Source of the DNA: an uncultured Prevotellaceae bacterium
GTDB taxonomy: Bacteria > Bacteroidota > Bacteroidia > Bacteroidales > Bacteroidaceae
Assembly: GCA_902786665.1 (NCBI GenBank)
Contig: CADADN010000013.1
Location: forward strand, 1-64,000
DNA length: 64,000 nt
Direction: 5' to 3'
Below, piece after piece: positions 2,710 through 11,228 of this stretch (position 1 is its first letter; each line of letters opens with the position of its first letter). The translations under genes were made by a program, and so were the position numbers. The notes under the pieces were generated by a model. The model searched no databases and was not told the origin of the DNA. It saw only the letters and a program-made list of their open reading frames with translations.

Positions 2710-5700
2710 TTACAATTGAATAATCCTTTGAAATAGTGAATCCAAATAGTCATTGTCATTGTCAAAGAGCACGTGGTTTTCTATAAATTTGGGCTTTGGT
2801 CCCCAGAATTTCACTTGTGAATAATCGGTATTTGACAATATATAACTGTCAAGCGTGATATCTGCATCCTGCAAAGTCGGCTCCACTTCATTCTTCAGTG
2901 TCTTGTAGAGCTGGATTTTGGGGTCATCCATTCCTTTCAGGTTGCGGATTCCTTTCGGGTCGATAAATGTCACATGTTGATGGCTCCCGTCGTTCACCCA
3001 CAGAATGAAGTCAGGATAAAAGCCACTGGCTTCAAAGAAGCCAATGCCTTTCCGACTCTCATTGCGAAGTAAATATACATCTTTATCCCTCAATATACCA
3101 AACTTGTTGGCTTCATAATATTCCCTTATCCGCTTTACGAAACTGGTCTCGCCGACATTCAATGCCACTGGTGAAATTTTAATTAGTGGTTCATTGGTGT
3201 TTTTATCGACCAACAGTTTCTTCCCATTAGAATCTTTGTCACGCAAACAAAGCAACGGATAGAACAAATGATGGTCAAAATGGAAAGACGTAATCCAAGA
3301 ACCATAAATGGAGAAGTCACGTTCAAGATTACCCGATAAGATTTGCTCTCTCAACTCCTTCAATTTCTCTATCCATGCAGATTGGTCGTTCCGCACTTCT
3401 ACCTTGTATTCTTCAAAGAAATTCGGATCATTAGGCGAAAGTTCAACCGTCTCCATATATTTCGACTCCCATTTGCCTTTACACATTTTATAAGCACGGT
3501 CTATATAGGCTCGGAGCAAGGCTATTGTTATTTCCTCCCACCGAGAGACATCACGTCCAAAGTCATGAGGTTTTAAGTCTTCTTCCTGTATATAGAGTTC
3601 ATACCAGTCAGTTTGATTCATTATGTGCTGAAGCATCTCACGACTAATCTCCATATTCCACCAACTCCGTTCATTCTTCATCCGCTCAATGGCAAAGAAA
3701 ACCTTGTTCCAGTCAAGCAAAGCCAAATGTTGATGATTGAGTTTTCCTTTGGGTATGATGGCACCGGCATCCACACCAGCCTTTTTGCTCCAAATAGCTT
3801 CCACCTTTGGGAGCCAATCTACTTTGACATGCACTTTGTCCAAGCATTCATCCGGATGCACCACAATCATTTTCTTGAAGTCGTAACCTGGCTTTAATCG
3901 AACCACTATCAGCTTCTTGTCGCCAAGCAGATTGACTGTTGGTATCTTCACTTCAGTATAGCTTTCTTCATTTGCAGGCAAGCCTTCATCCTCCAAATAC
4001 TTGCGGAAGGTTTCCATATAGTCTGCACGTACACCAAAGATATTCAAGGTCTCAATTTCTCGCAAACCGTTTGGCAGGTTGCCTGGATTGTAACTGGCAT
4101 CAAGCGCACTACTCCGTTTCAAGGAATATAGGAAACCTTTCAGACGCACACCGCGACCAAATAATTGGATGATTTCAGAACCCTCGCTTCGCCCTACGTT
4201 CATCAGTCCCATAACTGACACGCGCCAACTGCTCCAACCCTCGCTGAATTTTTTGGAACCTATCAAAATATTGATGGTAGAATCGTCATTGTTGATGCCA
4301 GTAAACAAAGAGTTTGTTCCAAACTCCCTTGTCTCGCAGTCCAGGCCTTGGCTTTCACAGAGTTTTATCAAAGAGTCACTGTCACCTACATTAATCACCC
4401 CGAAATAGTCGGCAGAACCTACGCGCAGGCCTATCTCTTTATCACCTCCTTTTTGTTTGTCAACGTGCAGGTGTGCATTAGGCACATGGCTGTGGAACAG
4501 TTTTTCTACGACCTTTCGATAAGTCTGTTGGGCAAAAGCATCTTCCTCTCCAGGTTTCAATTCCTTCTTTGTCAATATGAAATTGTTGGCAAACAGCGAG
4601 TAGCCGTTTGGGTTCTTGATGCCATCATCGGGATTGAGCAAGCGTTTGATATAGCCAGTAAACTCACTGTGTCTTTCGATAAATGCTTTTAGGAACAAGA
4701 GAATTTGGACCACATCACTGACATCCAACCCACGTACCTTTCTCACGGCATTGACTGATCCTCCAACGAAGATGCCTAATGGTTTGGCAATGAGAAATCG
4801 ATTCTTGATTTGGATGTCACTGTCGAAAGCCAATGTTTGCTCATACAGACAAAGTAAATAGGCTGTCATATACATATTCAACAACTCCTCGTCATCCCAC
4901 GAAGCCATATTCATAATGCGGTAGTCCTTGCCATAACCATCGTTGTAGAAATATCGGTAACTATAATCGAATAATGTGGCTTTTCCATATTCCTCCAATA
5001 AGGCTTGTCTGTTTTTACCCGTTTGTGCGGCAATGGCTTGTCCAAAGGTAGCAGAATATTCAAAGGAAAAGCCTTCCATTGTCAGCGTGTTACGATAGCC
5101 TTTCCATACTTCGCCACCACTTCCCTTGTGTCCTTCATCTACTAACACCAGGTTGTTGCCCTCAAAACTCTCTACAGCAACAGTCTTATCGCCATCTGTG
5201 TCTGCCAATTTGTTGATGTCGATGACATCTATGGTGTCACCCTTGAACAGTCCTCCTCCAGTTTGTTTGGTGAACATCTCGGCAGGCATGTTGGATAACC
5301 GCAGCTCATCCAAATGCTGTTTCGAAAGTCCCTCATTGGGTGTGAGAATCAAAATGCGGTTGAGTTTCTTGGCATTATACTTCTTTGCATAATGTAGATA
5401 TTGCTTTATGTTGACGTGCATCATCAGCGTCTTACCTGCTCCTGTTGCACACCAAAATGCCACCTTGTTTAAATCATCCTCTGTAAAAAGAGGCATGCCA
5501 TGCCAAGTTTCTTGACGGAAATTAAAATCATCTACCAAGAAGGTGTTGATGTCGATGAGCAGTTTCTGACGGTCGGTGAAATAACGGTCGAGGTATATCT
5601 CAGTGAACAACAGCGCAAGGTATTGATAATATTTCCAAGTGATTTTTTCCTCACGCCGCTCGTTGATTTCACGGGTATGGCTGACGATGTTGCGGTCATA

Positions 5701-5928
5701 CTCATAAAGCTGTTCCTCAGTGATATGGTAATCATACATGTGCATTTTTAAAGCGTAGAAAATGTGCGATGTACCTTCATCATCGACACCCTCCAACGCC
5801 GGGTCTTTCAAGTCATTGCTCAACGCTTCCAAATCCTTGCATCCCAACAGATGCAGGATGTATTTATGCAACACCAACGCCTCTTGTAAGCGTGGCGGGC
5901 GTTTTGCTGGTTGTTTTACTCTTGGCAT
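2710..5928 (-). CDS. Type III restriction enzyme, Res subunit
   Basis: The 1072-residue protein is an SF2 helicase-nuclease. Motif I ATGAGKT is at about residues 161-167, motif II is DEGH at 264-267 (the DEAH-like box usual in these enzymes), motif III lies in EYSATFGQ, and motif VI is QLFGRGVRLKG near residue 590. A C-terminal nuclease-like segment reads FYPDFILWV then TFIDPKG, a PD...D-x-K arrangement. With Mod it would recognise unmethylated head-to-head sites, translocate using ATP and cut DNA. The start lies 3 bp after the mod stop, so the two are co-transcribed. Length fits the larger Bacteroidetes Res proteins. I see no frameshift, so the system looks intact. Confidence 0.9.
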   Translation of the reverse strand: MPRVKQPAKRPPRLQEALVLHKYILHLLGCKDLEALSNDLKDPALEGVDDEGTSHIFYALKMHMYDYHITEEQLYEYDRNIVSHTREINERREEKITWKYYQYLALLFTEIYLDRYFTDRQKLLIDINTFLVDDFNFRQETWHGMPLFTEDDLNKVAFWCATGAGKTLMMHVNIKQYLHYAKKYNAKKLNRILILTPNEGLSKQHLDELRLSNMPAEMFTKQTGGGLFKGDTIDVIDINKLADTDGDKTVAVESFEGNNLVLVDEGHKGSGGEVWKGYRNTLTMEGFSFEYSATFGQAIAAQTGKNRQALLEEYGKATLFDYSYRYFYNDGYGKDYRIMNMASWDDEELLNMYMTAYLLCLYEQTLAFDSDIQIKNRFLIAKPLGIFVGGSVNAVRKVRGLDVSDVVQILLFLKAFIERHSEFTGYIKRLLNPDDGIKNPNGYSLFANNFILTKKELKPGEEDAFAQQTYRKVVEKLFHSHVPNAHLHVDKQKGGDKEIGLRVGSADYFGVINVGDSDSLIKLCESQGLDCETREFGTNSLFTGINNDDSTINILIGSKKFSEGWSSWRVSVMGLMNVGRSEGSEIIQLFGRGVRLKGFLYSLKRSSALDASYNPGNLPNGLREIETLNIFGVRADYMETFRKYLEDEGLPANEESYTEVKIPTVNLLGDKKLIVVRLKPGYDFKKMIVVHPDECLDKVHVKVDWLPKVEAIWSKKAGVDAGAIIPKGKLNHQHLALLDWNKVFFAIERMKNERSWWNMEISREMLQHIMNQTDWYELYIQEEDLKPHDFGRDVSRWEEITIALLRAYIDRAYKMCKGKWESKYMETVELSPNDPNFFEEYKVEVRNDQSAWIEKLKELREQILSGNLERDFSIYGSWITSFHFDHHLFYPLLCLRDKDSNGKKLLVDKNTNEPLIKISPVALNVGETSFVKRIREYYEANKFGILRDKDVYLLRNESRKGIGFFEASGFYPDFILWVNDGSHQHVTFIDPKGIRNLKGMDDPKIQLYKTLKNEVEPTLQDADITLDSYILSNTDYSQVKFWGPKPKFIENHVLFDNDNDYLDSLFQRIIQL

Positions 5929-5931
5929 GGC

Positions 5932-8900
5932 TCAATCCTCTTCAAACATTCGTTTTTGGAACTCCTCTTCTATCAGCACCACTTTCCAATGCTCTTCGTC
6001 ACGGCGCAGGTTGGGCAGGGTGTTGTCACCATTCACATAAATGATGTCAAACTCTGAGTCGCGGGTTCGGAAATCCATACGGTCGAAGAAATCACATAAC
6101 GCTTCGTTGTTGATTTTCTCGCAGTTGCGCCAAATGACCAAGGTTTTTAAGCCATCGCGGTGAGTCTTTCCTTGCACCACACAGATTTGGTCATCTTTAT
6201 GCCAATCTTCTGTTTCTACATTCAGTCCTATAAGATAGTTGAATGTTTCCACCATATCTACCTTCGTTTCCACCAATTCATTGTCTTTGGTGGTTTTCAG
6301 TGACATATTGAAAGGGTTGACAAACCATTTCAAACTGAGCAGGGATTCACGAGTCTCAGTGTCGAGCATATAGTTGAGCATATAACTCTCATGGAACTTG
6401 TCATCGCGCCAATCTATCTGCTGCTTCTTGATTTCAAGGTTATTCAGCGTATCTTCATACTGTTCCAAACGGATGTACTTGAAACAGTGAGAGATGCCTT
6501 TACGAGAGATGGGTTTGCCGTTGTCCCATGTTTCAGAATAGATAGCACGTTCTGTTCTTGTGCGAAGAGCAGGATTAAAATACTCTGCCATATCACAGAG
6601 AATATATTTTCTGTTCCCATTATCTTCTTTATTAAGATTAAGAACAGCATGACTTGTAGTCCCACTTCCTCCAAAATAATCCAAGACTACAGCATCTCTA
6701 TGACAGCCTGAAACACGCAAGCAATCTTCTACAGCATGAATGGATTTGGGATAATCAAAAGGTATGTCCATTTTTTTTAACAAATCAGTTCCGTGTTCTG
6801 TCGCTGAATACTTTGCGTCTCCCCATGTGGTTAAGGGTTGAACGCCTTCGTTGGGACGACGACGATAATAAACATAAGTTATTCCACTTTCTTGTATTTC
6901 GGCCTTAAGAGAGCTAACATGTTCTTTGATGTTGTCAATACCAAAATACCAGCATCCTGCACTTCCATCGTCTTTAATAGGATAGACAACGACTTCATTG
7001 GGTTGAGGTTCTTCTTTAATTTCAAAAGTTTTTGTTTCTTCAATATAATCCATTTCGGGCAAACGGAAAGTTCCAGCTGCCTTGTTCCAGTAAAAAGGAT
7101 AATACATAGTAGGGCGATTTTCTCTATGAGAGTTAGAGCCTGCTTTTCTTAACATTTCCCAAAAGAATGGCCCTTTTTCATCACGTTCTCTATATCGTGC
7201 CAATTGTTCATCTGTGCGAGCAAGCCTTGCTATAGATGTTTTCTCATTTGTCTTAGAAAACAAACCATATTCATGTGAAATTGCAAAACCATTGGGTATT
7301 GGACGGCCAGAAGGCTTTATTCGAATAGCCACAACTTCTGGTTGTTCCTCAAAAACACTTTCAAGTAAAAAGTTCAATTTGCTTTGCTCAACATCATCAA
7401 TAGTAGTACATTGTATTCCGTCTGAGGTCAGAAGTTGCTTGCCTAATGCTAAACGGCTTTCCATCAGGCTCAACCATGAGGAATTTTTATAATTATTTTT
7501 GTAAGCAATTTCACTTGCACTTGTGTTATATGGAGGGTCTGCATAAATGTTCTTTATGACTTTTTTATACTTCTCCTGCAACAACTCCAACGCCTGGAAA
7601 TTTTCGCTATTGATAAGCAATCCATTCGTCTGTTCATCAATATTCTCCATACTCTTCACTAACAGATGCTTAAACTTGGCATCGAAGAAAGCGGTGTCGA
7701 GAACAAGGAAGGGATTCTGCTTCAAGAATTCAACGGTAAGTGGTTCGCTATATCCTTCTGTGGTAAGGTCTCCCTTAATCTCGTCAATAGCAAATAGACG
7801 TACCCATTCCTTACGTTGTGCTTCGTTAGCAATAATCTCAGGATAGAGTTTCTCAGGGACACGGTCAAGCGTGATGCAATAGTCACTTTGCACCACGAAC
7901 TTCTTCTTCAGCCACAATCGGCGTTGGAAGTTTTCAAGCTGAGCCAACATACGGATAATCTTCTCGCCCACCTGCTTGATGGCTCTGACAGTGGTCAACT
8001 GATTGTTGATATACTGTGAATCCAAATCGTCGATGTGCAGCACTTCATTCTTGATAAAGAAGTCCAATTCACGATTCAAAAAGCCTCCAAGGTCTTTATG
8101 GATGAAATAGTCGAATGAGTTTTTAGCAGTATAATCTGACAAGTGTTTCTCCAACAAGGTGCGGTTAGCATTTTCCTTTGTCGGCATCTTTACTGAAAGT
8201 AGCTCCTCAAATTCAACTGGCACCAATGGCTTGATGGTTTCCAAAGCTTTCGAGAGTAAATCTTTTTGTTTCGTTGCCTTCGGCATCAATTCGTATGAAA
8301 AATAGATGCAGAGGTCACCGTCAGCGTTCAAATCCATAACAGGGTCGGATTCTCCTTTCTGCTGCCAAATGGCAAACCGCCGCTCCATATTGTTTTGAGC
8401 TTTGTTGTTGTTTTGTTCGGTTGTGGCATCACGAAGCACAAAATGCACTTTTCTCCTTGATGTAGGCAACACAAAAGTATAATTGCGGAAATACTCTGAG
8501 GTCTTGATGTAGTACTGGTCGCTGTTAGCCCAATGCAGTTTCACTTCCTCACCATTGTAAGGTATGGCGTAGGTGTTATCTTTATATCGTCGTTTTGAAA
8601 TAAAGTCGCCACCATCATAATAACGGGAGAAGAACATGACCAAATGTGAGAACACCTGTGCTTGCATAGACTCGGTATCTCCAGATTGTGCCAACTGCTC
8701 TTGCAATTTGTCGTATTCATCGCGCATGGGTGTGCCTTTGGGGAGCACTTCTATGTTGCCACCCACATTGGCTGCAATCTCAGCCATTCGCCGTTTGGCC
8801 TTGTCTGAGTCTCCAGTTCCATTGCTTTCCAACACCTGTTTCACTTGTGGTAGCAATTCCTTTTCGAGGAAGTGTTCTATGTCTTGCCTCTTTTGATTCA

Positions 8901-8994
8901 TGATGCGGTAGATGCCAAAGTCCAGTTCGGCATGATCCATCATAAAAATCTCTTTCAGTTTCTTTTTGAAACTCTCATAGTAATTCTGTGCCAT
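5932..8994 (-). CDS. Type III DNA methyltransferase, Mod subunit (N6-adenine, beta class)
   Basis: Motif IV DPPYNT lies near residue 485 and motif I, LDYFGGSGTTSHA, near residue 770. This order defines the beta class of adenine-N6 methyltransferases and is typical of type III Mod proteins. About 480 residues precede motif IV, much longer than in EcoP15I Mod, as is usual for the ~1000-residue Bacteroidetes Mod proteins; this part and the segment between the motifs likely include target recognition. The ATG at 8994 (MAQNYYESFKKKLKEIF) is chosen because it matches the family N-terminus; an in-frame TTG at 9027 would add 11 residues. Res follows after 3 bp. No good promoter is seen directly upstream, but a candidate invertible promoter segment lies at 9128-9316. 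Confidence 0.88.
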   Translation of the reverse strand: MAQNYYESFKKKLKEIFMMDHAELDFGIYRIMNQKRQDIEHFLEKELLPQVKQVLESNGTGDSDKAKRRMAEIAANVGGNIEVLPKGTPMRDEYDKLQEQLAQSGDTESMQAQVFSHLVMFFSRYYDGGDFISKRRYKDNTYAIPYNGEEVKLHWANSDQYYIKTSEYFRNYTFVLPTSRRKVHFVLRDATTEQNNNKAQNNMERRFAIWQQKGESDPVMDLNADGDLCIYFSYELMPKATKQKDLLSKALETIKPLVPVEFEELLSVKMPTKENANRTLLEKHLSDYTAKNSFDYFIHKDLGGFLNRELDFFIKNEVLHIDDLDSQYINNQLTTVRAIKQVGEKIIRMLAQLENFQRRLWLKKKFVVQSDYCITLDRVPEKLYPEIIANEAQRKEWVRLFAIDEIKGDLTTEGYSEPLTVEFLKQNPFLVLDTAFFDAKFKHLLVKSMENIDEQTNGLLINSENFQALELLQEKYKKVIKNIYADPPYNTSASEIAYKNNYKNSSWLSLMESRLALGKQLLTSDGIQCTTIDDVEQSKLNFLLESVFEEQPEVVAIRIKPSGRPIPNGFAISHEYGLFSKTNEKTSIARLARTDEQLARYRERDEKGPFFWEMLRKAGSNSHRENRPTMYYPFYWNKAAGTFRLPEMDYIEETKTFEIKEEPQPNEVVVYPIKDDGSAGCWYFGIDNIKEHVSSLKAEIQESGITYVYYRRRPNEGVQPLTTWGDAKYSATEHGTDLLKKMDIPFDYPKSIHAVEDCLRVSGCHRDAVVLDYFGGSGTTSHAVLNLNKEDNGNRKYILCDMAEYFNPALRTRTERAIYSETWDNGKPISRKGISHCFKYIRLEQYEDTLNNLEIKKQQIDWRDDKFHESYMLNYMLDTETRESLLSLKWFVNPFNMSLKTTKDNELVETKVDMVETFNYLIGLNVETEDWHKDDQICVVQGKTHRDGLKTLVIWRNCEKINNEALCDFFDRMDFRTRDSEFDIIYVNGDNTLPNLRRDEEHWKVVLIEEEFQKRMFEED

Positions 8995-9127: not shown

Positions 9128-9142
9128 TCTCTTTCTAAGAGA
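9128..9142 (+). repeat. Left inverted repeat of a candidate invertible segment
   Basis: TCTCTTTCTAAGAGA is the exact reverse complement of the sequence at 9302-9316. Each copy is itself two half-sites, TCTCTT and AAGAGA, around a 3-bp centre. The centre is TCT here and AGA in the other copy, so the pair is inverted, as expected for recombinase sites that allow inversion. It lies 133 bp upstream of the mod start. Confidence 0.7.
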
Positions 9143-9301
9143 ATGAACGAAAACGCAACCCTCTATAAGCAAGGGTCTTATGATTTTAGAACGGCACTTT
9201 TTGCCCAACAATCGTCAAAAAATAACTCCTTAATCACGTTTTTTATAAATAAATTATGGTGGAATTTGCCGAAAAAACACTATTTTTGCATCAATTATCT
9301 G
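9143..9301. other. Candidate 159-bp invertible promoter segment upstream of mod
   Basis: The segment is AT-rich, holds no gene, and is bounded by a perfect 15-bp inverted repeat. Near its right end is a plus-strand TATTTTTG (9281-9288), which as drawn points away from mod and into a hairpin terminator 33 bp on. After inversion this box would point toward mod, with the transcript starting about 110 nt before the methyltransferase start. A tyrosine recombinase gene lies 0.6 kb away. The reading as a phase switch is inference; the repeats and the box are directly visible. Confidence 0.55.
9281..9288 (+). promoter_or_regulatory. -7 box (TATTTTTG) inside the candidate invertible segment
   Basis: This matches TAnnTTTG. 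The -33 region at 19-21 bp upstream is poor (no TTG), so promoter strength is uncertain. In the present orientation it would transcribe rightward, giving only a short RNA before the hairpin at 9321-9356. Confidence 0.45.
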
Positions 9302-9316
9302 TCTCTTAGAAAGAGA
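9302..9316 (+). repeat. Right inverted repeat of the candidate invertible segment
   Basis: TCTCTTAGAAAGAGA is the exact inverse of 9128-9142, and the two bound the 159-bp segment. The flanking bases outside the 15-bp core are not conserved between the two copies. Confidence 0.7.
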
Positions 9317-9320
9317 GTTA

Positions 9321-9362
9321 GCGATTTGCTCAACAATTTATTGTCTTGCAAATCGCATTTTT
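9321..9362 (+). terminator. Hairpin terminator just right of the candidate invertible segment
   Basis: GCGATTTGC (9321-9329) pairs with GCAAATCGC (9348-9356), and the loop contains a second hairpin (ACAAT/ATTGT). ATTTTTG follows. A transcript from the box at 9281 would stop here after about 70 nt. Confidence 0.6.
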
Positions 9363-9667
9363 GTTGGCATCTTGGAAGTCACCGGGGATTCACCCCCCCG
9401 ACTATGTTATGTCACCCCTTCGGGGTTAGGACACCTCCTCTTCTTTTTCTATCGTTCCTCCACCCGAGATTGTTTAGGCATTCTTCTACAAAATTCTTTA
9501 ATACGTGATAAAAAGAGTGAATGACATCAGGGGTTCTTTGACTTCTGTGTTTACAAAACAAGCTGTATTGGTATTATGAATTGAAAGTGAAGTCAAGGAG
9601 ATTATGAAAATCGTTTATTCAGACAAGAGAAAAAGAGTTTATCCTACACACGGGCTCTCGCCAAGAC

Positions 9668-9749
9668 CATAATGGGATAAGCTTCAGGGCTGCCACTGTT
9701 GCCGTCATTTTTCTTGATGAATAATGACGGCTCATTGCAGCCCATTATG
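9668..9749. repeat. Nested inverted repeats, structured element of 82 bp
   Basis: Three stems nest: CATAATGGG (9668-9676) with CCCATTATG (9741-9749); GGGCTGC (9687-9693) with GCAGCCC (9737-9743); and GCCGTCATT (9701-9709) with AATGACGGC (9723-9731). The outer two compete for CCC. The result would be a strong cruciform or a folded RNA. Function unknown. Confidence 0.6.
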
Positions 9750-9825
9750 ACAATTGATGGTGGTTGATGTTCTACCAAAATGTCGAGGCTAAAAGTGTTT
9801 TGCATCAAAAGATCAGTATCAACAA

Positions 9826-9848
9826 GGGGTGGGTAAAAAACCCGCCCC
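9826..9848 (-). terminator. Terminator of the tyrosine recombinase gene
   Basis: On the minus strand a 9-bp GC-rich stem (9848-9840 with 9834-9826, one G-U-type pair) closes a TTTTT loop and is followed by TTGTT. It starts 33 bp after the recombinase stop. Confidence 0.65.
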
Positions 9849-9881
9849 ATTTGCATCAAAACAAGCAACGACCAATTCTTG

Positions 9882-11078
9882 TCACAAGAGTGAGAGAATC
9901 ATCTTGTTTGCCTTGTCCACCACGGAAGTTTCGAGAGAGGCGAGATAGACCTGCGTGGTGGCTTCGGAGTCGTGCCCCATGCCTTCACTGATGACCGCTA
10001 TCGGCACGTTCTTCGCCTTGGCGGCACTGGCCCAGGAGTGGCGTGCCACATACATGGTGAGCGGCCGTTGCAGTCCGAGCATCACCGAGAGCTTTTTCAG
10101 TCGGCTGTTCACCAGATGGAGGGCGTTGGTGTATTGCCGGCGCTCGTCATCTTGACGATTGATGATGGGCAGAAGGTATTCCGACCCATCCACCTTGTAT
10201 CTCTCCACGATATCCTCCATGCACCTCTCCCAGCGGATGGTCAGCTGTTGGCCGGTCTTTCTCCGCCGGTAGGTGAGGACACCGTGTTTCAGGTCGGTCT
10301 TTCTCAAGTATGCCATATCCACGAACGACATGCCGCGGGTGTAGAAACTGAAGAGGAAGAGGTCGCGTGCGTATTCCAACGATGGTTTCAGCGAGAGGTC
10401 CATGCCCTTCAACGCCCTGACGACTTTGATGGGTACGGCACGTTTCACCGTCTTGTCGATTCCCGTATATACATGGCGGAAGGGGTTGCGCTGCGGTGCA
10501 AGACGTTTCTCCACGGCGCGGTTATAGACGGCGCGGAGGATGCGCATGTAGAACGAGATGGTGTTCATCCTCACATCACGGGCTTTCAGCCACGCCTCAT
10601 AGAGGAGCATGAGGTCAGAGGTGATGCCGTCGAGCGGCATGTCCTCACCCTCGCGGAAAGCCATGAAGCTACGGAGCGTAACATGGTAGGTCTCCGAGGT
10701 GCGCACACGCCCCAACCGCTTCAACTGTGCGATGATGCCGTGCATGAACCCACACAGCGACGACTCCCGGGTCACCTTTTGGAATGCCGCGACCACATCG
10801 TCAGCCGAAAAGCGACGGCACTCGTTTTCCAAGGTTTGGATGACCTTTGTCATCCTTGCAACATCCCATTCAAGACGTTCCTTGATGTCTTCCAGCACGT
10901 TACGGCGTTCTCCTTCGCCGACGACTACAGTCGCTGCCTCGGAATCCCACTCGTCGGCATGGACCATGTAGTCGGTGTGTATCTGCCTTGCCATCCTGTT
11001 TTGTATAACTTGGAAATAAATGCAGCCAGGCCTCCCTTCCACTGTCGAAGCCCTGAACTTAACCTTTACTGATGCCAT
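9882..11078 (-). CDS. Tyrosine recombinase / phage-type integrase (Bacteroidales family)
   Basis: The 398-residue protein has the layout of Bacteroidetes tyrosine recombinases: an N-terminal arm-binding region (MASVKVKFRAS...GCIYFQVIQN), a SAM-like core-binding domain (about 110-210), and a catalytic domain. Visible catalytic residues are Arg in FYTRGMSFVDMAYL (near 249), the His-x-x-Arg-type box in YVARHSWA (near 346), a later His in GMGHDSEATTQVYLASL, and the nucleophile Tyr in QVYL (near 375). The reading frame stays open upstream to 12392, but that part is antisense to argR and the GNAT gene, so the start at 11078 is chosen. It transcribes toward the candidate invertible segment and is a plausible enzyme for it, or it is the remnant of an integrated element. 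Confidence 0.88.
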   Translation of the reverse strand: MASVKVKFRASTVEGRPGCIYFQVIQNRMARQIHTDYMVHADEWDSEAATVVVGEGERRNVLEDIKERLEWDVARMTKVIQTLENECRRFSADDVVAAFQKVTRESSLCGFMHGIIAQLKRLGRVRTSETYHVTLRSFMAFREGEDMPLDGITSDLMLLYEAWLKARDVRMNTISFYMRILRAVYNRAVEKRLAPQRNPFRHVYTGIDKTVKRAVPIKVVRALKGMDLSLKPSLEYARDLFLFSFYTRGMSFVDMAYLRKTDLKHGVLTYRRRKTGQQLTIRWERCMEDIVERYKVDGSEYLLPIINRQDDERRQYTNALHLVNSRLKKLSVMLGLQRPLTMYVARHSWASAAKAKNVPIAVISEGMGHDSEATTQVYLASLETSVVDKANKMILSLL

Positions 11079-11228
11079 GATAAAAAGAATTTGTTTATTG
11101 ATTTTCCAAAATGATTTTCGTCGGCACAATAATACGACAAAAACGGCTTTAACCCATGTCATTTTGATACAAGCAGGAATTGGAAATAACTTAACAAGCA
11201 TTTTTTGCAACAATATTCGCAAAAATGT

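Follow-up and report, generated by a model that had tools for sequence, protein, structure and literature searches.

The window analysed here, a stretch of 64,000 nucleotides from an uncultured Prevotellaceae bacterium, carries adjacent Mod and Res genes, which the first-pass annotation had taken for a type III restriction-modification system. PADLOC agrees, matching mod to MTase_III (1.9e-215) and res to REase_III (1.8e-201), while NCBIfam gave no family for either gene. Both reading frames are open over their full length, and the ATG at 8994 that starts mod agrees with relatives. As judged by eye, the relatives of mod in genomes G055, G042 and G045 lie closely behind an upstream gene; in the window, mod is the first gene. 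A gene pair for a Gp49-like toxin and an HTH antitoxin-like protein (1889-2519) lies beside the restriction system. Upstream of mod are found a leader RNA, a pair of inverted arms that enclose a promoter, a hairpin, and the gene for a tyrosine recombinase (Table 1).

Table 1. Features of the window between res and the recombinase gene
Feature	Coordinates	Strand	Basis
res, type III restriction subunit	2710..5928	-	PADLOC, Pfam
mod, type III DNA methyltransferase	5932..8994	-	PADLOC, Pfam
Leader RNA of the pseudoknotted family that precedes defence genes; keeps the pseudoknot strands but not outer stem P1	9013..9124	-	
Left (gene-side) arm, TCTCTT-TCT-AAGAGA	9128..9142	no strand	repeat search, arm family
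Probable invertible promoter segment, drawn OFF: promoter rightward, away from mod	9143..9301	+	box position, relatives
-7 box TATTTTTG (TAnnTTTG), 21 bp inside right arm	9281..9288	+	
Right (recombinase-side) arm, TCTCTT-AGA-AAGAGA	9302..9316	no strand	repeat search, arm family
Hairpin then T run, faced by promoter as drawn; likely terminator	9321..9356	+	termination inferred
Tyrosine recombinase, likely cognate invertase	9882..11084	-	start inferred from relatives' N-termini

The two arms, 15 nt each and 100% complementary around 159 nt, are the perfect inverted repeat that had been annotated, and each consists, as described, of TCTCTT and AAGAGA half-sites around a 3-bp centre that differs in orientation (TCT on the left, AGA on the right). 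The -7 box points right, away from mod, in keeping with the annotation, and faces the hairpin. The arms of this hairpin (9321-9337 and 9340-9356) are 17 nt long and 82% complementary, with ATTTTTG directly after them on the plus strand. The hairpin and T run of the terminator proposed at this position are therefore present, and termination itself remains a likely consequence of them. The -33 element is weak, as had been noted: no clear one exists in the window, and a search for a clear -33 motif across the family of such switches found none. Nor was any TAnnTTTG box that points towards mod, as drawn, found in the 400 nt upstream of the leader, which fits the earlier statement that no other good minus-strand promoter was found before mod. 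When the segment is turned round in silico, exactly one such box faces mod, namely the segment's own. The assembly shows a single orientation of the segment. Between hairpin and recombinase lies about 0.5 kb (9357-9881) that is missing in most close relatives, where 28 bp are found, and a second hairpin (9701-9731) lies inside this interval.

The pattern TCTCTT-NNN-AAGAGA occurs five times in the 5.73-Mb genome to which the window belongs, against about 0.3 occurrences expected by arithmetic and none for the reversed control. Four of the five form two inverted pairs, one in the window (centre TCT) and one on contig C15 (centre CGT). When genomes were scanned for pairs with 145-175 bp between the arms, the paired pattern was detected in 14 of 298, the window's own included, with no control pair among the matches listed, and paired arms occur in at least 118 stretches of a species-genome collection. 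Over all the loci gathered, there were 135 distinct arm pairs with 45 different 3-bp centres. The centres match in inverted orientation in 127 pairs, directly in three and neither way in five, where the chance of a matching centre is about 1/64. Because the half-sites are palindromic, the centre alone tells direction and makes two arms an inverted pair; an inverted match is thus what inversion between partners demands, although eight of the 135 pairs lack it. An odd-length centre flanked by TT and AA would also suit the 7-bp crossover of a tyrosine recombinase. By their letters and their pairing, the window arms are members of a Bacteroidales family of putative invertible promoters.

Promoter position is similarly regular across this family. 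A TAnnTTTG box lying 15-45 bp inside an arm and pointing outward is present in 114 of the 127 inverted-centre pairs, compared with 5% of shuffled segments. It is found at the right arm in 56 switches, at the left arm in 55, at both in three and at neither in 13. The distance from box to arm peaks at 20-24 bp, and the window box, at 21 bp, falls within this peak.

The tyrosine recombinase that had been placed 0.6 kb away does lie there, its stop being 565-566 bp from the right arm. Relatives of this protein (the searches used 9882-11000) are encoded within 700 bp of 40 of the 127 switches, in all 40 cases with the 3' end of the gene towards the switch; the promoter at these switches points to the recombinase in 28, away from it in eight, and is ambiguous in four. 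The catalytic residues R222, K248, R320, H343 and Y352 (positions on the 372-aa stretch that was compared) are the same in all 51 aligned recombinases, so that an enzyme that is catalytically intact, as judged by its residues, appears to be linked to the window sites. All NCBIfam matches to the recombinase were below cut-off. Contigs L226, L231 and L235, from other genomes, end 45, 148 and 137 bases past the recombinase stop; ends at or near the expected switch may reflect assemblers that met mixed orientations. Plasmids H2-H15 from Bacteroides and Parabacteroides, most of them ~98-103 kb, carry a 53% relative of the recombinase.

Comparison of relatives indicates that segments of this kind do invert. 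Eighteen leader-linked switches have a clear state. Between segments in opposite states, the flipped alignment is the better one in 55 of 56 pairs, and between segments in the same state the unflipped one in 90 of 97, a test that is partly circular because state is read from the box inside the segment. The full-length comparison of L087, whose promoter points away from its genes, with L282, whose promoter points towards them, escapes this circularity: the two are 94.9% identical flipped and 52.9% unflipped. L282, in genome G468, is also the closest sister of the window system found behind such a switch (mod 63%, res 82%), a type III system in the ON orientation that is preceded by a gene for a DrmD-like helicase. 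The same kind of segment is thus found among relatives in both orientations, though at loci different from the window's. Genome G468 has two leader RNAs behind two switches, L225 before BREX (OFF) and L282 before the type III sister (ON).

Matched centres, the fixed position of the box, the linked recombinase and the flipped relatives together support the annotated reading of the segment as an invertible promoter, with mod-res predicted to be OFF as drawn. The window copy probably still flips, and its inversion would turn expression of mod-res ON and OFF. A methylome that varies with orientation, and with it the phasevarion suggested in the annotation, would be a possible consequence. A reading of the arms as operator sites for a dimeric regulator, without inversion, might be suggested by each arm being itself a near-palindrome, but it was rejected on the flipped relatives and on centres that come in 45 kinds between loci yet match within 127 of 135 pairs, and with tyrosine recombinases adjoining the arms it is scarcely credible.

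The leader RNA between switch and mod was absent from the first-pass annotation. Its shared element combines a 5' strand (CUCGACA..GACC) with a small GCC/GGC hairpin and with a long stem-loop made up of P1, P2 and P3. A pseudoknot forms where the loop and the 3' side of this stem-loop pair with the 5' strand. Among the first 16 copies, two-sided changes occur at 14 of 33 base pairs, a number that none of 500 shuffles reached. Of the 112 cells of the 7-bp pseudoknot helix, 109 are paired, more than in any of 5000 shuffles of the partners. Since related sequences can exceed shuffles without any structure, the variety of compensated pairs is the stronger point. A model built from these 16 brought the alignment to 38 copies, which are not mutually independent, some loci being near relatives. 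In these, two-sided changes affect 24 of the 33 pairs (again unequalled in 500 shuffles), with 79 two-sided cells against 19.9 (sd 5.0) when shuffled, and sliding the partners lowers pairing from 88.6% to 36-42%. The two pseudoknot helices are 92% and 96% paired in an alignment that was fitted to the nested stems and not to the pseudoknot. By nested energy, four of five leaders from relatives fall well below their shuffles (z -3.1 to -4.6), with L298 at z -1.7; the window leader, from which P1 is gone, is no better than its shuffles (z -0.62).

The end of the stem lies 8-17 nt before the start codon in 27 of the 37 copies for which a start was found, and the T runs behind P1 are short. The structure thus covaries, lies on the same strand as the gene and stands just upstream of it, and covariation argues that in relatives the leader is a conserved pseudoknotted element. 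A known Rfam family was rejected as its identity: none of the Rfam 15 covariance models matches the leader at gathering scores, and the L132 leader has no match up to E 1. A leader peptide gene in place of a structured RNA was likewise considered, as 10 of 28 leaders, all 10 among the 13 that bear the RNA, have a frame that spells WSPVE or WSPIE. However, all three frames were scanned, so the peptide is simply the conserved core as one frame happens to translate it; by eye, the copies share neither start codon nor frame, L056, L229 and L234 have neither peptide, and the letters covary as base pairs, pseudoknot included. This alternative was rejected and is very improbable.

The loss of P1 bears on another possibility, namely that the window switch is a locked relic, once invertible and now fixed OFF, with mod-res silent or read from elsewhere. 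The window recombinase lies 566 bp from the arm, compared with 28 bp in most of its nearest relatives (~70% identity), and no second promoter box points towards mod. Other recombinase-linked switches nevertheless have spacings of 193-601 bp, the window arms are perfect with matched centres, the catalytic residues are intact, and mod and res are both open. A locked relic is therefore unlikely, and a switch that still inverts is preferred.

A covariance model detected the leader RNA at 31 places in 29 of 398 genomes of the window's genus, and a second, applied across the order, in three of 393 genomes, the window's own included. Consequently, the RNA is almost confined to this genus in the sample. 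A complete arm pair stands before 20 of the 38 copies (14 OFF, four ON and two ambiguous) and a single arm before four; the remaining 14 have none, so that confinement of the RNA to the invertase module was rejected. Twelve of the 14 armless copies have a TAnnTTTG box in the upstream sequence examined, nine of them 42-50 nt before the RNA; L291, counted as armless, has one arm-like site with one mismatch at -156. The 13 RNA-linked recombinases complete enough for a tree all fall in one clade of 23 (support 100/98), which also holds seven rows without RNA and three of undecided RNA status, and no RNA row lies outside it. Against a strict linkage, therefore, seven of the 20 classified members of this invertase clade lack the RNA.

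Some copies appear to be mobile. Six viral-collection contigs carry the leader core, and a search for the leader RNA on plasmids gave no match. Both L055 and L056 are flanked by genes for a relaxase and for MobC/NikA, and L167 by one for a relaxase, which points to mobile elements. On the viral-collection contigs L304, L305 and L306, the leader RNA and restriction genes are found, by eye, beside terminase-like genes, and they are perhaps defence cargo of prophages.

The genes that follow the leader are mostly those of defence systems, with defence genes among the first four downstream ORFs in 33 of the 38 copies (representatives were scanned by PADLOC and the remainder assigned to them by BLAST). 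They include BREX genes (BrxC, PglX and BrxHI), DndC with PbeC and PbeA (Dnd/Pbe), DpdF (Dpd), a DrmD-like helicase with type III, HsdR, HsdM, cytosine methylases, type IIG, PDC-S02 and the HKD-Snf2 helicase C3a139, which represents a candidate class and at several loci accompanies mod-like genes. The systems behind the leader thus comprise BREX, Dnd/Pbe, Dpd and restriction systems of types I, II, IIG and III. Later loci outside the training sets of both models have defence genes in seven of seven cases, with L307, which is truncated and followed by the same genes as L306, left out of the count. As a control, none of 264 flanking ORFs at 104 RNA-less switches matches the same proteins (L155 fell out of this control because its gene starts inside an arm), and at RNA-less, recombinase-linked switches at most two of 40 proteins match PADLOC at 1e-8 (40 of 43 proteins were scanned, and three partial ones left out). 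The association is not absolute, however. L228/L155 and L227 have defence genes without the RNA, and no recognised defence gene was found behind five of the 38 copies (L279, L169, L299, L281 and L295).

At L279:1087-7717, L299:8048-11968 and L100:1049-4119 lies an operon that encodes a protein weakly resembling tubulin, with scores below the Pfam cut-offs. The operon stands behind a leader RNA at L279 and L299 and behind a switch at L100 and L299, has no PADLOC match, and is a candidate for a new defence system.

The RNA might also do no more than attenuate or insulate transcription, carried along with mobile cargo and sensing nothing. This would account for the long stem followed by T-rich stretches, for the mobilisation genes beside L055, L056 and L167, and for the copies in viral-collection contigs. 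A plain terminator, however, needs no conserved pseudoknot, the T runs are short, and the distance to the start codon is conserved, which leaves an attenuator without sensing somewhat improbable. Many unrelated defence systems have this leader before them, whether or not an invertible promoter is present, and a shared cis-regulator is therefore its most likely role.

Taken jointly, these comparisons make it very probable that 9128-9316 is an invertible promoter and the leader RNA a shared cis-regulator of defence, forming two gates in series. This reading draws on the arm family and its pairing rule, the promoter position, the linked recombinase, the flipped relatives, the covariation of the RNA and its association with defence genes, all seen at the level of sequence. 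The recombinase would bind the TCTCTT/AAGAGA half-sites and exchange strands across each arm centre. As drawn, the promoter fires away from mod into the hairpin, so that mod-res would be off; after inversion, it would fire through the leader RNA into mod-res. Gate one would then be the invertible promoter, switching at random, and gate two the leader. As P1 ends near the ribosome landing zone, with a short T-rich stretch after it, the leader may block translation or end transcription, and such a block would hold until a signal opens it. Because unrelated systems share the leader, that signal would be common to the cell or to infection rather than the product of one system. In the window copy, where P1 is missing, the promoter may be the sole gate.

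Invertible promoters with a local invertase, regulators of resistance genes included, were reportedly described in Bacteroidales by Jiang et al. in 2019. Bacteroidales invertible promoters with invertases, mobile ones included, are well known (PMC8748976, PMC11892184), and some of those with a local invertase regulate resistance genes (PMC8748976). Those switches resemble the present ones in their inverted repeats, the TAnnTTTG inside, the adjoining invertase and their location on mobile elements. The present switches differ in having a complete operon for restriction or defence as their cargo, and in the structured RNA that separates this operon from the promoter. In the phase-variable capsule promoters of Bacteroides, a segment of similar size (183-186 bp) is flipped before an operon, but the arms (GTTCGTTTAA / ARACGTTCGTN) and the class of recombinase (the serine invertase Mpi) are other than those in the window (PMC8375218).

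Phase-variable restriction-modification, partly by DNA inversion, is also established. Restriction systems varied by inversion in hsdS are known (PMC11892184, PMC5608340), and phasevarions are defined by type I and III systems whose switching has another basis (PMC11868660). In these sources, variation comes from reading-frame repeats or from exchange of hsdS coding sequence (PMC11868660, PMC11892184, PMC5608340), in contrast to the promoter switch proposed here for a type III system. Invertible promoters are mentioned as a possible methylase switch in a further paper (PMC10333322). The abiF RNA motif (RF03085) likewise is a structured RNA before a defence gene, which it controls; it has one protein, which it neutralises (PMC12373285), whereas the present leader precedes many unrelated systems and has no Rfam match. 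In the open-access literature searched, no paper was found that describes type III, BREX or other complete defence operons under the control of an inverting promoter, or the leader RNA, and a search by the arm letters gave no lead. The leader RNA is apparently undescribed, and what appears new here is its place between switch and mod and its sharing by many defence systems.

A broader proposal, held tentatively, is that of a defence riboregulon in Prevotella-like bacteria, in which one horizontally spread leader couples many systems to one infection or host signal, and a dedicated invertase clade adds a bet-hedging flip upstream of this leader. Immunity would then have to pass two gates, a DNA switch that acts at random and an RNA that senses, and operons without assigned function behind the leader, such as the tubulin-like one, would be new defence systems. 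Promoter-inverted defence would itself explain how costly restriction systems are carried silently and released in a subpopulation. Should the leader prove to be a common regulator, a single RNA would govern many immune systems together; it would then offer a way of asking which signal switches on bacterial immunity, and finding it in a genome would flag new defence operons.

Beyond the window, the pairing rule by 3-bp centre offers a simple way to list such switches in Bacteroidales genomes. Genome G087 has seven switches of the arm family, in five centre classes after reverse complements are merged; these centres might serve as addresses that keep loci apart. The second switch in the window's own genome (L053:12435-12621; contig C15:55434-55620; centre CGT) has a left-pointing box, TAATTTTA, one letter off the consensus, and adjoins an operon that encodes a protein kinase, a PP2C phosphatase and an FtsW/transpeptidase fusion.
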